Source: Modestobacter sp. L9-4 (GTDB taxonomy: Bacteria > Actinomycetota > Actinomycetes > Mycobacteriales > Geodermatophilaceae). From it: a stretch of 64,000 bases of DNA. The notes beneath the pieces are model-generated. The model did not search any database. It was not told where the DNA came from and worked only from the letters and a program-made list of their open reading frames with translations. Position numbers and translations under genes: made by a program. Location: contig NZ_CP077800.1 in the NCBI RefSeq assembly GCF_019112525.1, positions 2,790,001-2,854,000 on the forward strand, in the 5' to 3' direction. Below, one piece after another: positions 1 through 53,594 of this stretch (positions within the stretch are counted from its first letter, which is position 1; each line of letters begins with the position of its first letter).

Positions 1-452
1 TCCCGGAGTCGTCCCTGCCGCCGGTCGAGCCGGTGACCGTCGACCCCGGCATGCGCTGCACCGGTGAGGTGCTCACCCTGACCGGCGGGCCGCTGGCCTT
101 CCGGCCGGGTGAGCCGGCCCTGCTGGACCGGGCCGCGGCGACGCAGCTGCTGCGCCCCTACGCCGAGCAGCTCATCGCCCGCCCGGAGCTGATCGCGGAG
201 GTGTTCGGCACGTCCCCCGCGGTGGGCGAGGCCGCCGTGGACCGCCAGGTCAGCGAGGACCGGGCCCAGGAGGTGGCCTACGTCCTCATCGACCTCGGTG
301 TGCCTGTCCCACAGCTGCACGTGCTCGGCCTGGGCAGCGAGTTCGCGGGCCGGGTGCCCGACCGGGACGACACCGGGCACCTCCTGCCGGGGGCCGCGGC
401 CCTCAACCGCACGATCCGGATCGACTTCACCGAGCCCATCGAGTGTGTCTGA
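1..452 (+). CDS. OmpA-family C-terminal domain protein (5' end outside window)
   Basis: The reading frame is open to the left edge of the window, so only the C-terminal ~150 residues are seen. The segment VSEDRAQEVAYVLIDLGV followed by a hydrophobic beta strand (QLHVLGLGSEF) and the closing AALNRTIRIDF is the pattern of the OmpA/MotB peptidoglycan-associating fold: a helix after a conserved D/S-x-x-R-A, then a strand, then an N-R-x-I-x-I strand. In actinobacteria such domains sit at the C-terminus of envelope proteins and contact the cell wall. The stop is one base before the ATG of the downstream glycosyltransferase, so the two genes are probably co-transcribed. The N-terminal domain, and therefore the exact role, cannot be judged. 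Confidence 0.6.
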   Translation, partial: PESSLPPVEPVTVDPGMRCTGEVLTLTGGPLAFRPGEPALLDRAAATQLLRPYAEQLIARPELIAEVFGTSPAVGEAAVDRQVSEDRAQEVAYVLIDLGVPVPQLHVLGLGSEFAGRVPDRDDTGHLLPGAAALNRTIRIDFTEPIECV

Positions 453-45863: not shown

Positions 45864-45923
45864 GAAGGACCCCCGTGCCCCCCACCGCTCGCGAGCTCGC
45901 GGCGGGCCCCTGCACGGGGGCCT
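45864..45923. repeat. Intergenic covarying hairpin element, copy 2
   Basis: About 60 bp between the convergent DUF3180 and opuCA genes, touching both stop codons. Outer arms AGGACC-CCCG-TG and CA-CGGG-GGCC; same inner arms as copy 1; the loop region has a GCGAGCTCGC palindrome. It probably terminates both transcripts. Confidence 0.78.
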
Positions 45924-47109
45924 AGACGGCGCCGGCGGTCTCGGGGACGGTGCCCTCCACGGAGCGGCGCAGGGCGGCGTGCAGCGACTCGGGGGTCAGC
46001 ACCCCGCAGAAGCGGTCGCCGTCCAGCACCGCGACCCAGCCGGCCTCCAGCTGCAGCATGGTGGAGAACGCCGTCTTCAGGGTGGCGTCGATCGGCACCC
46101 AGGCCTCCATCCGCTTGCCCGCCGCCCGCACCGTGCCCACGCCGGCGGCCCGCTCGGCGGAGATCCAGCCGTGCAGCGTCTGGCGGTCGTCCAGCACGAC
46201 CGCCCACCGGGCGCCCGCGCGCTGCATCGCCGCGCGCGCGTCGGCGAGGGAGTCGTCGACGTGCACCACCGGCGGCTGCTCCAGGTCGGCCATGTCGATG
46301 CCGGTGACCGCCAGCCGCTTGAGCCCGCGATCTGCGCCGACGAAGTCGGCCACGAACGGGGTCGCGGGGGAGCCGAGCAGCTCGGCGGGCGGGGCGAACT
46401 GCTCGACGGTGCCGCCGTAGCTCATCACCGCGATCCGGTCGCCGAGGCGCACGGCCTCCTCGATGTCGTGGGTGACGAACACGATGGTCTTGCGCACGGT
46501 GTCCTGCAGCCGCAGGAACTCCGTCTGCAGGCGCTCGCGCACGATCGGGTCGACGGCGGAGAACGGCTCGTCCATCAGCAGCACCGACGGGTCGGCGGCC
46601 AGCGCCCGGGCCACCCCGGCGCGCTGGCGCTGGCCGCCGGAGAGCTGGTGCGGGTAGCGGTCGCCGAAGGTCGCCGGGTCCAGACCGACCAGGTCCAGCA
46701 GCTCCTCGACCCGGTCGCGGGTGCGGCGCTTGTCCCAGCCCAGCAGCCGGGGGACCGTGGCCACGTTGCGGCGCACCGTCTGGTGCGGGAACAGGCCCAC
46801 GTTCTGGATGACGTAGCCGATCCGCCGGCGCAGCTGTACCGGGTCGACCCGGGTGACGTCGTCGGCGCCGAGCAGGATCCGTCCGGTGCTCGGCTCGATG
46901 ACCCGGTTGATCATCTTCATCGTGGTGGTCTTGCCGCAGCCCGAGGGGCCGACCAGCACGGTCAGCTCGCCGGCGGCGAAGGTCAGGTCCAGCTCGCGGA
47001 CGCCGACGGTGCCGTCGGGGTAGGTCTTGGACACCCCGTCCAGCCGGATCTCCTCCGCGCCGGACCCCTGGGTGGGTGCGGGCGAGGAGGAGGGGGCAGT
47101 AGCGTCCAC
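45922..47109 (-). CDS. opuCA: Osmoprotectant ABC transporter ATPase with CBS pair
   Basis: A 395-residue ABC ATPase of the glycine-betaine/choline OpuA/OpuC/ProV group. Walker A is GPSGCGKTTTMKMINR (~53-60), the Q-loop IQNVGLFPHQTV, signature LSGGQRQRAGVARALA, Walker B VLLMDEPFSAVDP, and the H-loop THD. The C-terminal ~110 residues contain two CBS-like halves (VVHVDDSLADARAAMQRAGA and EAWVPIDATLKTAF...GVLTPESL), which in OpuA sense ionic strength. It is divergent from the two permeases, with 26 bp between starts. The stop lies inside the intergenic hairpin. Confidence 0.93.
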   Translation of the reverse strand: MDATAPSSSPAPTQGSGAEEIRLDGVSKTYPDGTVGVRELDLTFAAGELTVLVGPSGCGKTTTMKMINRVIEPSTGRILLGADDVTRVDPVQLRRRIGYVIQNVGLFPHQTVRRNVATVPRLLGWDKRRTRDRVEELLDLVGLDPATFGDRYPHQLSGGQRQRAGVARALAADPSVLLMDEPFSAVDPIVRERLQTEFLRLQDTVRKTIVFVTHDIEEAVRLGDRIAVMSYGGTVEQFAPPAELLGSPATPFVADFVGADRGLKRLAVTGIDMADLEQPPVVHVDDSLADARAAMQRAGARWAVVLDDRQTLHGWISAERAAGVGTVRAAGKRMEAWVPIDATLKTAFSTMLQLEAGWVAVLDGDRFCGVLTPESLHAALRRSVEGTVPETAGAV

Positions 47110-47135: not shown

Positions 47136-47834
47136 GTGCTGAGCGCGACGAGCGGTGACGTCCTTGCGCTGGACGCCGCGCCGAACCCCTGGTTCGACCC
47201 GTCCTACGTGTCCGGCAACTGGGACACCATCATGGCCCTCCTCGGTGAGCACGTGCGGCTGACGGTCGCCGCGGTGGTGCTCGGCGCGCTGATCGCGCTG
47301 CCGCTGGCGCTGCTCGCCCGGCGCAGCCGGTACCTCGCCGGCCCGGTGCTCGGCCTGTCGACGCTGATCTACACGATCCCGTCGCTGGCGATGTTCGCCT
47401 TCGTCGCGCCGGTGACCGGGCTGTCCGACCGCACCGTGCTCGTCGGCCTGGTGCTGTACTCACTGGTCATCCTGGTGCGCAACTTCCTGGCCGGGTTGCA
47501 GTCGGTGCCCGCCGACGTGCGCGAGGCCGCGGTCGGGATGGGCTACGGCCGCGCCCGGCTGCTCTGGCAGGTCGACCTGCCGCTGGCGCTGCCCTCGGTG
47601 ATGGCCGGGCTCCGGGTGGCCACCGTGTCCACGGTCGCGCTGGTCACCGTCGGGGTGATCGTCGGCCACGGCGGGCTCGGGCAGCTGATCACCGGCGGCT
47701 TCAACTCCAACTTCTACCGGGCGGAGATCGTCACCGGGGCGCTGGGCTGCGTGCTGCTCGCGCTGGTCGCGGACCTGCTGCTGGCCGGGGCCGAGCGCCT
47801 GCTCACCCCCTGGAGCCGGAGGGCCCGGGCATGA
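47136..47834 (+). CDS. opuCB: Osmoprotectant ABC transporter permease
   Basis: A 232-residue permease. Five to six hydrophobic segments and the coupling loop VPADVREAAVGMGYGRARLLWQVDLPLALPSVMAGL (~residues 128-163), with the E-A-A-x3-G-x9-LP layout for contact with the ATPase. GTG start. It shares a very short divergent promoter region with opuCA and overlaps the second permease by 4 bp. Confidence 0.93.
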   Translation: MLSATSGDVLALDAAPNPWFDPSYVSGNWDTIMALLGEHVRLTVAAVVLGALIALPLALLARRSRYLAGPVLGLSTLIYTIPSLAMFAFVAPVTGLSDRTVLVGLVLYSLVILVRNFLAGLQSVPADVREAAVGMGYGRARLLWQVDLPLALPSVMAGLRVATVSTVALVTVGVIVGHGGLGQLITGGFNSNFYRAEIVTGALGCVLLALVADLLLAGAERLLTPWSRRARA

Positions 47835-48559
47835 GCGTGTGGCACCAGGCCTACCTGTACCTCAACGACCCGCTCAACTGGTCGAAGAGCGGCGGCATCC
47901 TCGACCTGCTGGTCGAGCACCTGCGGATCTCCGTGGTCGCCGTGCTGGTGGCGATGGTGGTCGCCCTGCCGGTCGGCGTCCTGCTGGGCCACACCGGGCG
48001 GGGTGGTGGGTTCACCGTGGCGCTGTCCAACGTCTCCCGCGCCGTGCCGACGCTGGCCCTGCTCACGGTGTTCGCGGTGACCCCCATCGGCTTCGGCCCG
48101 ACCGCGACGACGATCGCGCTGGCGCTGTTCGCCGTCCCGCCGATCCTGACCAACGCCTACGTCGGCTTCCGGGAGGTCGACCGGGACGTCGTCGAGGCCT
48201 CGCGCGCCATGGGGCTCAACGGCCGCCAGGTCGTGTTCCAGGCCGAGCTGCCGCTGGCCGCGCCGCTGCTGATGACCGGGGTCCGCACCGCCGCGGTGCA
48301 GGTGGTGGCCACCGCGACCCTGGCCGCGCTCGTCGCCGGCGGTGGGCTCGGCGAGATCATCAGCCTGGGTTTCGGCCAGCAGGACTACGGCGCGGTGCTG
48401 GCCGGTGCCGTGCTGGTCGCCGCACTGGCGGTGCTCACCGAGCTGGTGCTGTCGGTGGTGTCGTTCCTGCTGACCCCGGGGCAGAAGCGGCTGCCGTTCC
48501 TGCACGCCCGGGCGCAGCGTCCCGGCCGGCCCGCCGAGGTGGCGGCGTCCCCGCTCTGA
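47831..48559 (+). CDS. opuCD: Osmoprotectant ABC transporter permease (second subunit)
   Basis: A 242-residue permease, related to the previous one. Membrane segments start at ~28 and the coupling loop is VDRDVVEASRAMGLNGRQVVFQAELPLAAPLLMTG (~117-151). TLAALVAGGGLGEIISLGF is typical of OpuCB/CD C-terminal parts. ATG overlaps the upstream stop by 4 bp. The stop codon lies in a 14-bp palindrome. Confidence 0.93.
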   Translation: MSVWHQAYLYLNDPLNWSKSGGILDLLVEHLRISVVAVLVAMVVALPVGVLLGHTGRGGGFTVALSNVSRAVPTLALLTVFAVTPIGFGPTATTIALALFAVPPILTNAYVGFREVDRDVVEASRAMGLNGRQVVFQAELPLAAPLLMTGVRTAAVQVVATATLAALVAGGGLGEIISLGFGQQDYGAVLAGAVLVAALAVLTELVLSVVSFLLTPGQKRLPFLHARAQRPGRPAEVAASPL

Positions 48560-48708: not shown

Positions 48709-49740
48709 ATGCGCGTACGCGCCCATCTCCTCACCACCCTCGCCGTCGCCGCCGTCCTGACCACCGCCGCGTGCGGTGAGTCCGGCTCGTCGTCCGGCTC
48801 GGCCACCGGCGGCACGGCCGCCGCCAGCGGGGCAGCCACCTCCGCCGCCTCCGGGGACGCCTGCGCCCCCGTCGCCGGCAAGGAGCTCGTCGTCCTCGAC
48901 GACGACAAGGACCTGCAGAACGCCGACAACATCATCCCGGCGGTCAACGCGGCAGCAGCCAGCGCCAGCCCGGCGCTGCTGGAGACGCTGAACAAGGTCT
49001 CCACGGTGCTCACCACCGACGACCTCGTCCAGATGAACGCCGACGTGGACGTCCAGCGCAAGAGCGCCACGGACGTCGCCTCCGCCTACGTGGCGGACAA
49101 GGGCCTGGACTCCGGGGTCTCCGGCGGCAGCGGCGCCGTCGTCGTCGGCGGCTCGAACTTCACCGAGTCCACCGTGCTGGCCAACGTCTACGCCGACGTG
49201 CTGAACGCCGCGGGCTTCACCGCGACGGTGCAGGCCGTGGGCAACCGGGAGCTCTACCTCCCGGCGCTGGAGAAGGGGGACATCCAGGTCTTCCCCGAGT
49301 ACCTCTCCACGGCCACCGAGTTCCTCAACAAGGCGGCCAACGGCGCCTCGGCCTCGCCGGTCGCCTCCGGGGACGTCGACGCCACGGTCACCGCGCTCAC
49401 CCCGCTGGCCCAGGCCGCGGGCCTGACCTTCGGCACCCCGTCGGAGGCTGCGGACCAGAACGCCTTCGCCGTGACCAAGGCCTTCGCGGACAAGCTCGGC
49501 GTCACGACGCTGTCGGACCTCACCGCGGCCTGCGGTGACGGCTCCCTGGTGCTCACCGGCCCGCCGGAGTGCCCGGAGCGTCCGTTCTGCCAGCCGGGTC
49601 TGGAGGACACCTACGGGCTGTCCTTCGCCAGCTTCGAGGGCACCGACGCCGGCGGCCCGCTGGCCAAGGCCGCCATCCAGCAGGGCAAGGCCTCCATCGG
49701 CCTGGTCTTCAGCTCCGACGGCGCCCTCGCCCAGGGCTGA
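48709..49740 (+). CDS. opuCC: Glycine-betaine-type substrate-binding lipoprotein, apparently circularly permuted
   Basis: A 343-residue lipoprotein: signal peptide LLTTLAVAAVLTTAAC with lipidated Cys22, then a Gly/Ser/Ala linker. Residues ~58-132 (ELVVLDDDKDLQNADNIIPA, then LTTDDLVQMNADVDVQRKSA) match what is normally the C-terminal end of OpuCC/ProX proteins. Residues ~141-343 (VVVGGSNFTESTVLANVYAD, then RELYLPALEKGDIQVFPEYL, ending GLVFSSDGALAQ) match the normal N-terminal and middle parts. Canonical proteins continue from the last motif into the first, so the order appears permuted. It should bind betaine-like solutes for the opuC permeases. Its stop abuts the third intergenic hairpin. Confidence 0.87.
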   Translation: MRVRAHLLTTLAVAAVLTTAACGESGSSSGSATGGTAAASGAATSAASGDACAPVAGKELVVLDDDKDLQNADNIIPAVNAAAASASPALLETLNKVSTVLTTDDLVQMNADVDVQRKSATDVASAYVADKGLDSGVSGGSGAVVVGGSNFTESTVLANVYADVLNAAGFTATVQAVGNRELYLPALEKGDIQVFPEYLSTATEFLNKAANGASASPVASGDVDATVTALTPLAQAAGLTFGTPSEAADQNAFAVTKAFADKLGVTTLSDLTAACGDGSLVLTGPPECPERPFCQPGLEDTYGLSFASFEGTDAGGPLAKAAIQQGKASIGLVFSSDGALAQG

Positions 49741-49806: not shown

Positions 49807-49845
49807 GACGAAGGCCCGCTCCCCGTCCGGGGGCGGGCCTTCGTC
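49807..49845. terminator. Bidirectional terminator between opuCC and DUF1684 gene
   Basis: GACGAAGGCCCG-CT-CCCC pairs with GGGGCGGGCCTTCGTC (16 bp with a 2-nt bulge) between convergent genes, directly beside hairpin copy 3. Confidence 0.75.
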
Positions 49846-52491: not shown

Positions 52492-52637
52492 ACACCCGCT
52501 CCGGGTGGTCGCAGCACGTGCCCCCGTCGCTCGACGAGCACCAGCTCGACCTGCACCACCCAGCGGTCCACGACGACGTGGGCCGACGCGACCTGAGTCC
52601 GGTACCCGCACGGGACTGGAACGAGAGGTGCACCGGG

Positions 52638-53594
52638 ATGACCGTCGGTCCCCGCGCGGCCGCCGCTGCGCCCTCCGCCGTGCCCGCCGCAGGCCTGCCC
52701 CCTGCCGGCCGGGCCCCCGCCCGCCTGCGCGTGGGCGTCATCGGCGCCGGCCGGGTGGGCGCCGTGCTGGGCGCCGCCCTCGCCGCCGCCGGTCACGAGG
52801 TGGTCGCGGCCGCGGGCCTGTCCGCCGCCTCGCGTGCCCGCGCCGCCCGGCTGCTGCCCGGTGTGCCGCTGGTGCCCGCCGAGGAGGTCGTGGCCGCCGG
52901 CGACCTCGTCGTGCTCGCCGTCCCCGACGACACCCTCGCCGGCCTGGTCGCCGGCCTGGCCGGGACCGGGGCCTGGCGCCTCGGCCAGTTGGCCTTCCAC
53001 ACCTCCGGTGCCGCCGGGCTGGCCGTGCTCGCCCCGGCCGAGGACGCCGGTGTGCTGCCCCTGGCCCTGCACCCGGCGATGACCTTCACCGGCGCCCCCG
53101 AGGACGTGCACCGGCTGCTCGCCGCCCCGTTCGGGGTGACCAGCCGGCCCGAGCACCGCCCGGTCGCCGAGGCCCTCGTGCTGGAGATGGGCGGCGAGCC
53201 CTGGTGGGTCGCCGAGGCCGACCGCGGGCTGTACCACGCGGCGCTGGCCAGCGGCGCCAACCACCTGGTCACCCTGGTCGCCGAGGCCGCCGACCTGCTG
53301 CGTACCGCCGGCGTCGAGGAGCCCGCCCGGGTCCTCACCCCGCTGCTCACCGCGGCGCTCGACGGCGCGCTGCGCGGCGGCGACCGCGCGCTCACCGGTC
53401 CGGTCAGCCGCGGCGACGTGGGCACGGTCGCCGCGCACCTGCAGACCCTCGGCGAGCGGGCACCGGACGCCGTCGACGCCTACGTCGCGCTGGCCCGGCG
53501 CACCACCGAGCGCGCCCTGGCGGCCGGGCGCCTGCGGCCGCACGAGGGCGCCCCGCTGCTGGACCTGCTGCGCGCCGAGGAGGCCGCCCGATGA
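52638..53594 (+). CDS. Rossmann-like/DUF2520 oxidoreductase-type protein
   Basis: A 318-residue protein. The N-terminal NAD(P)-binding fold has [25 protein letters not shown] (~residues 31-55). [30 protein letters not shown] and [16 protein letters not shown] follow the Rv3603c pattern, and the C-terminal DUF2520 part has [34 protein letters not shown], similar to ketopantoate-reductase-like helical domains. In actinobacteria it always precedes panC. Pantoate formation is a tempting but unproven role. ATG 52638 has GAGAGG 9 bases upstream; GTG 52518 would extend it by 40 codons. Confidence 0.88.

Follow-up and report, generated by a model that had tools for sequence, protein, structure and literature searches.

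By sequence comparison, the protein encoded at 48709-49740 of the window (the whole 64,000-nucleotide stretch of DNA analysed here) is confirmed as a natural circular permutant of an OpuAC/ProX-type (PF04069) substrate-binding protein. Taken as a whole, the best explanation, in which we place high confidence, is that of a permuted, lipid-anchored receptor of an OsmU/OpuC-type importer, conserved within its clade, in a family in which rotation has recurred and the anchor would have shifted. The gene would thus supply the lipid-anchored binding protein of such an ABC importer, and two permeases and an ATPase adjoin it. The features are as follows, with S1 to S4 denoting the blocks of the canonical chain in their native order and type A the order found here:

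48709..49740, + strand, gene of the permuted substrate-binding lipoprotein, type A order S4-S1-S2-S3 (from sequence, PDB matches and the rotation scan)
48709..48774, + strand, signal peptide and lipobox Cys22 (lipobox identified by eye)
48775..48876, + strand, Ser/Gly/Ala-rich linker, including the type A-specific Cys52 (48862-48864)
48877..49110, + strand, block S4, residues 57-134, C-terminal in the native order and here close to the N-terminus
49111..49131, + strand, linker, residues 135-141, connecting the two native termini (C to N)
49132..49527, + strand, block S1, residues 142-273, the native N-terminal block
49531..49533, + strand, type A-specific Cys275 at the S1/S2 joint
49537..49632, + strand, block S2, residues 277-308, with the PPECPxRPFC motif
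49633..49731, + strand, block S3, residues 309-341, with the new C-terminus at its end
47136..47834, + strand, importer permease 1 (PF00528)
47831..48559, + strand, importer permease 2 (PF00528)
45922..47109, - strand, ProV-like ATPase with CBS domains, divergently transcribed (PF00005 and PF00571)

The open reading frame is intact, and the earlier statement that a proper signal peptide and a single frame argue against a frameshift was borne out, with 343 residues read in one frame and a Cys22 that is invariant in 38 of 38 aligned sequences. The lipobox signal peptide and the adjacent permeases and ATPase are those of a lipid-anchored ABC binding protein, with lipidation predicted. The ATPase scored 321.7 bits against TIGR01186, just under the cut-off of 326.6. 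Directly 3' of the gene, a terminator-like GC-rich inverted repeat (gaaggcccgc...gcgggccttc, window 49807-49843) was recognized by eye.

A Pfam search (E up to 1) returned PF04069 (OpuAC) as the sole family, at 146.1 bits against a gathering cut-off of 21.2 and in two stretches; a canonical relative (L153) has one such stretch, at 44-311. Against EgtUC chains in the PDB, residues 53-133 match positions 194-274 (i-Evalue 0.0016-0.0019, four alignments shown) and residues 144-338 match positions 8-194 (1.2e-9 to 1.5e-9). The two halves are therefore complementary and swapped, giving S4-S1-S2-S3 instead of the canonical S1-S2-S3-S4 topology in one stretch. When the protein was rotated back in silico, it yielded a single EgtUC match (7-281 against 8-274, E 2.8e-21), and the unrotated protein matched in two pieces (E 2.1e-16). 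We further performed a rotation scan, in which each chain was opened at every third residue and scored against a profile built from 80 canonical relatives. The best single domain of the window protein rose from 236.1 to 314.0 bits upon opening at residues 134-143, and those of two other permuted types, B and C, described below, rose from 207.0 to 376.5 and from 205.0 to 317.7 bits, respectively. Two canonical controls reached their highest score without rotation, with equal scores for openings within a few residues, and are not independent, since they or identical copies were part of the profile. The maximum among 100 shuffled sequences was 8.2 bits, and chance is excluded as the source of the swapped-half match. 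The block matches, the in silico rotation and the scan together establish the swapped order that the original prediction had read in this gene, and its proposed junction, which joined the end back to residue ~58, is right within a few residues. With complementary halves exchanged within the same, predicted, fold, the protein bears the hallmarks of a natural circular permutant.

The swapped order recurs across a clade. Scanning one genome per species yielded 331 candidate stretches and 194 relatives, of which 80 were kept, and all 80, together with the window's own copy, display the order S4-S1-S2-S3. Going by their labels, the type A sequences belong to Geodermatophilaceae, Cellulomonadaceae, Demequinaceae, Motilibacteraceae, Micromonosporaceae and Sporichthyaceae. 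Among the matches listed, at least 17 of 394 evenly drawn genomes of the class carry type A, and 162 of the 394 have any match at 1e-25; within the window's family, full-length type A matches occur in 91 of 112 genomes and any match at 1e-15 in 105. Two sequences carry unexpected labels: one assigned to a Spirochaetaceae MAG (L056) yet grouping within actinobacterial type A in the tree, and one assigned to Bacillus sp. (L014) yet resembling actinobacterial type A in sequence; both are probably mis-binned or mislabelled. At most loci a permease-like reading frame precedes the binding-protein gene on its own strand (type A, 94 of 99; type B, 18 of 20; type C, 4 of 4; canonical, 56 of 64), in a set in which loci are redundant and many are short. 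Where it is missing, the binding protein stands alone, except in L129 and L155 (the same gene, both from genome G728), where the ATPase precedes the binding protein and, in L155, the permeases lie on the opposite strand. Type A is thus shown to be clade-conserved and to reside in the same kind of operon as its canonical relatives.

Other actinobacteria carry the same family rotated at two further cut points, as S2-S3-S4-S1 (type B) and S3-S4-S1-S2 (type C). In trees for which every sequence was put into the standard order first, the three types fall on separate branches. The 107-row tree required five changes of order (one for A, with support 90/75, three for B and one for C), and the 128-row tree, which includes the type B sequences of the window's genus, required seven (one for A, with support 69/19, five for B and one for C). 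Seven changes were also counted in a 123-row tree (two for A, four for B and one for C), in which the bootstrap was not fully settled and from which five long or odd rows were left out (canonical L254, L217 and L210; type B L220 and L221); its second A change reflects the divergent L129 moving, with weak support. The divergent L129/L155 gene has an uncertain place in the tree, yet it possesses both of the cysteines specific to type A. One origin for type A is therefore likely but not firm, and a single origin of type B was rejected in the 107-row tree only (AU p 1.5e-5). From its spread, we infer that the canonical order is ancestral, with the count of events open to change by losses or transfers. 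Matches at 55-273 with an internal stop were considered as two neighbouring canonical genes and rejected, as the reading frames that were read proved to be single type B or C proteins and the stop their own end. Two lipoproteins (L220:3095-5005, + strand; L221:1570-3825, - strand) fuse a binding domain of type B order (PF04069) to two others, a peptidoglycan-binding domain (PF01471) and a polysaccharide deacetylase (PF01522), possibly forming a wall enzyme with a ligand-sensing domain.

In the window's genus, alternative permutants occupy one chromosomal site. Among 23 genomes, 14 carry type A, eight type B (block order read for all eight) and one has no match, and none carries both types at 1e-15. 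In nucleotide comparison, all eight type B operons have the left flank (window about 38.4-45.8 kb) beside them, and four of the eight loci (L229-L232) also extend to the right flank (52.2-52.4 kb onward); three further type B loci match at about 50.7-51.6 kb, and L236 gave no right-flank match within the stretch compared. The gene at window 52518-53594 neighbours both types, at a distance of about 3 kb from type A (four genomes) and of 6-7 kb from type B (five genomes), in 9 of 9 tested. The ATPase region (window 45922-47109, - strand; L229-L236) keeps its place and strand in 8 of 8 type B loci, with 75-76% identity over about 720 bases. Relative to this ATPase, the type A cassette of two permeases and the binding protein is divergent, and its type B counterpart is co-directional. 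The common flanks, neighbouring gene and ATPase therefore identify a single site that holds alternative permutants.

How the permutants arose may be sketched from their relatives. We infer that they emerged when the gene was duplicated in tandem and the outer parts were then lost, a route supported by the occurrence of tandem genes: canonical binding-protein genes adjoin each other in L219 (19 bases apart by the chosen start), and pairs of type A genes lie behind one permease pair in L237:4731-7030 and L238:4073-6685. Such tandem genes represent a precedent in relatives and not an observed intermediate of the window gene. Type A pairs are suggested in five genomes of one genus (G910, G911, G912, G914 and G916), two of which were read. 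A further candidate for a canonical tandem pair, L254, was rejected, since its reading frames (912-2132, - strand; 1912-2829, + strand) overlap on opposite strands; both frames score as canonical blocks, and the + strand one is very divergent (branch length 3.4) and may be spurious.

In EgtU, lobe D1 comprises residues 232-331 and 445-503, and lobe D2 residues 341-432 (PMC9732360, in the part available). Mapped onto EgtU by alignment, the cuts fall near 425-427 (type A), 363-366 (type B) and 394-397 (type C), which places all three inside D2. No cut in D1 appeared among the matches listed or in 263 classified reading frames (from 259 partly redundant loci, selected as matches), though rare ones could be missed, since the listings end before the weakest matches and the first scoring covered only some of the candidates. 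With a uniform choice of cut (D2 being about 92 of 267 mapped residues), three of three in D2 has a probability of about 0.04, a calculation that ignores loop tolerance; the clustering is thus only suggestive of a non-random choice, and it may reflect nothing but permissive loops. Since the new N-terminus would lie in D2, the lipid anchor should shift from D1 to D2. Opening the chain there would leave the ligand cleft and transport intact, and the tethered two-lobed receptor should deliver its ligand to the two permeases as usual.

Type A carries, in addition, a cysteine pair of its own. C52, before the first strand, and C275, at the S1/S2 joint, are present in 100 of 100 distinct type A sequences (93 of 93 in an earlier count on fewer loci). 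A cysteine at the S1/S2 joint is found in 0 of 93 canonical, 0 of 22 type B and 0 of 2 type C sequences, and one within 13 residues before S4 in 2 of 93 canonical (L177 and L178) and 1 of 22 type B sequences (L148); the pair is exclusive to type A. We predict a C52-C275 disulfide, which would pin the new N-terminus.

Why rotation recurred is a separate matter. A neutral account accepts the permutation and disputes its cause only: repeated tandem duplication would yield permuted survivors by chance, because the loops of D2 tolerate new ends, and the rotation would have no functional meaning. We give this account about even chances. The adjacent binding-protein genes, both canonical (L219) and type A (L237, L238), are what it would predict, as is the recurrence of the B cut at one place on three to five branches, expected of a permissive site, and the operon content is mostly unchanged. 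The confinement of all three kinds of cut to D2 and type A's own conserved cysteine pair speak against it, neither decisively. A selective cause, to which we attach rather less belief and which we offer only tentatively, would be that actinobacteria permuted this one family repeatedly (five to seven changes), at three points all seen in D2, because selection favours membrane tethering through D2 over D1. If so, permutation would be an evolutionary way of re-anchoring a surface receptor with its cleft unchanged.

Two further readings deny the permutation itself. In the first, very improbable in our estimate, the linker is followed by ~80 mature residues that form an unrelated domain merely resembling the OpuAC C-terminus, and the remainder is a truncated binding protein. 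It could appeal to the sequential structure alignment to canonical chains, which spans only 138..343 of the AlphaFold2 model (rows drawn from Foldseek's top 1000; the EgtUC chains are 28-29% identical over about 192 aligned residues), and is already contradicted by the complementary EgtUC blocks, the rotation scan and the model itself, which folds residues 51-340 confidently (pTM 0.81), leaves residues 12-48 at pLDDT under 50 and displays no unrelated N-terminal domain in the first ~75 residues. The type A chain is accordingly modelled, as a prediction, as a two-lobed binding protein, and the circular permutation proposed at the outset gains support from sequence, confident predicted fold and same-order clade alike. 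The second, that the window holds an assembly error or a frameshift artefact, is hardly credible given the single open frame, the same order in all 80 relatives kept, which come from other assemblies and among which no close homologue with canonical order was found, and the full-length matches across the family.

The name OpuCC given by the original prediction proved too specific, as two of the four aromatic cage positions are replaced and the OsmF equivalog model (NCBIfam NF049931) gave 87.2 bits, far below its cut-off of 400, a score lowered by the permutation itself since the model is order-dependent. A four-residue aromatic cage is described for EgtUC, AfProX, OpuBC and OpuCC (PMC9732360, same part). 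In the alignment, the window protein retains Y198 and F334 as aromatic positions, and the other two are occupied by N251 and D73. Y198, N251 and D73 do not vary among the 38 sequences aligned, and position 334 is Phe in 79 and Leu in 15 of 100 distinct type A sequences. N and D occupy these positions in the canonical sister L153 as well, so the unusual pocket is a trait of the subfamily and not of the permutation. A small quaternary or polar compound is the probable ligand, though not one enclosed by a full aromatic cage.

To our knowledge, natural permutants are mostly single cases between distant proteins. Here, a single family includes the canonical arrangement as well as three rotated ones, together with unpermuted sisters, operons of the same kind and, within one genus, alternative rotations at a shared site. 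It thus allows direct tests of how permutation originates, which cut sites are tolerated and whether the position of the anchor bears on ABC import, and provides a natural test, with three cut points and seemingly several origins in related bacteria, of how far protein ends can move. It also allows one to gauge how far annotation and phylogeny methods mis-score permuted proteins, and supplies naturally permuted scaffolds for binding-protein sensors.

Permuted binding proteins as such are already known, and the earlier supposition that none had been described in this transporter class holds in part only. CPSARST reported circular-permutation relations among the betaine-binding proteins 2B4L, 1R9L and 1SW1 in 2008 (PMC2395249, in the part available), and no description of types A and C, or of recurrent permutation within the family, was found in the open-licence literature searched, in the portions available (including PMC2395249, PMC4990184, PMC10087775, PMC12667903, PMC9732360 and PMC3688454); these appear to be new. 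The canonical cluster F-III proteins (EgtUC, A. fulgidus ProX and OpuBC/OpuCC, as well as YehZ/OsmF) resemble the window protein in PF04069, fold blocks and type of importer operon, and differ in their S1-S2-S3-S4 order, with ends in lobe D1. B. subtilis OpuAC (2B4L, 2B4M, 3CHG), whose pocket is Trp-based (PMC9732360, same part), has a sequential chain that, judged from alignment ranges, corresponds to the type B order S2-S3-S4-S1; its identity in the structure alignments is 15-18%, and it has the order of neither type A nor type C. Types B and C, in turn, are permuted members of the same family in the same kind of operon as type A, with other cut points and without the C52/C275 pair. A parallel in anchoring is TpMglB-2, the Treponema pallidum glucose-binding lipoprotein described in 2016 as a lipid-anchored natural permutant among ABC binding proteins and proposed as type Ic/cluster Bc, for which the authors raised anchoring as a possible cause of permutation; it differs in belonging to the cluster B sugar-binding family and in having a single permuted topology described (PMC4990184, in the part available).
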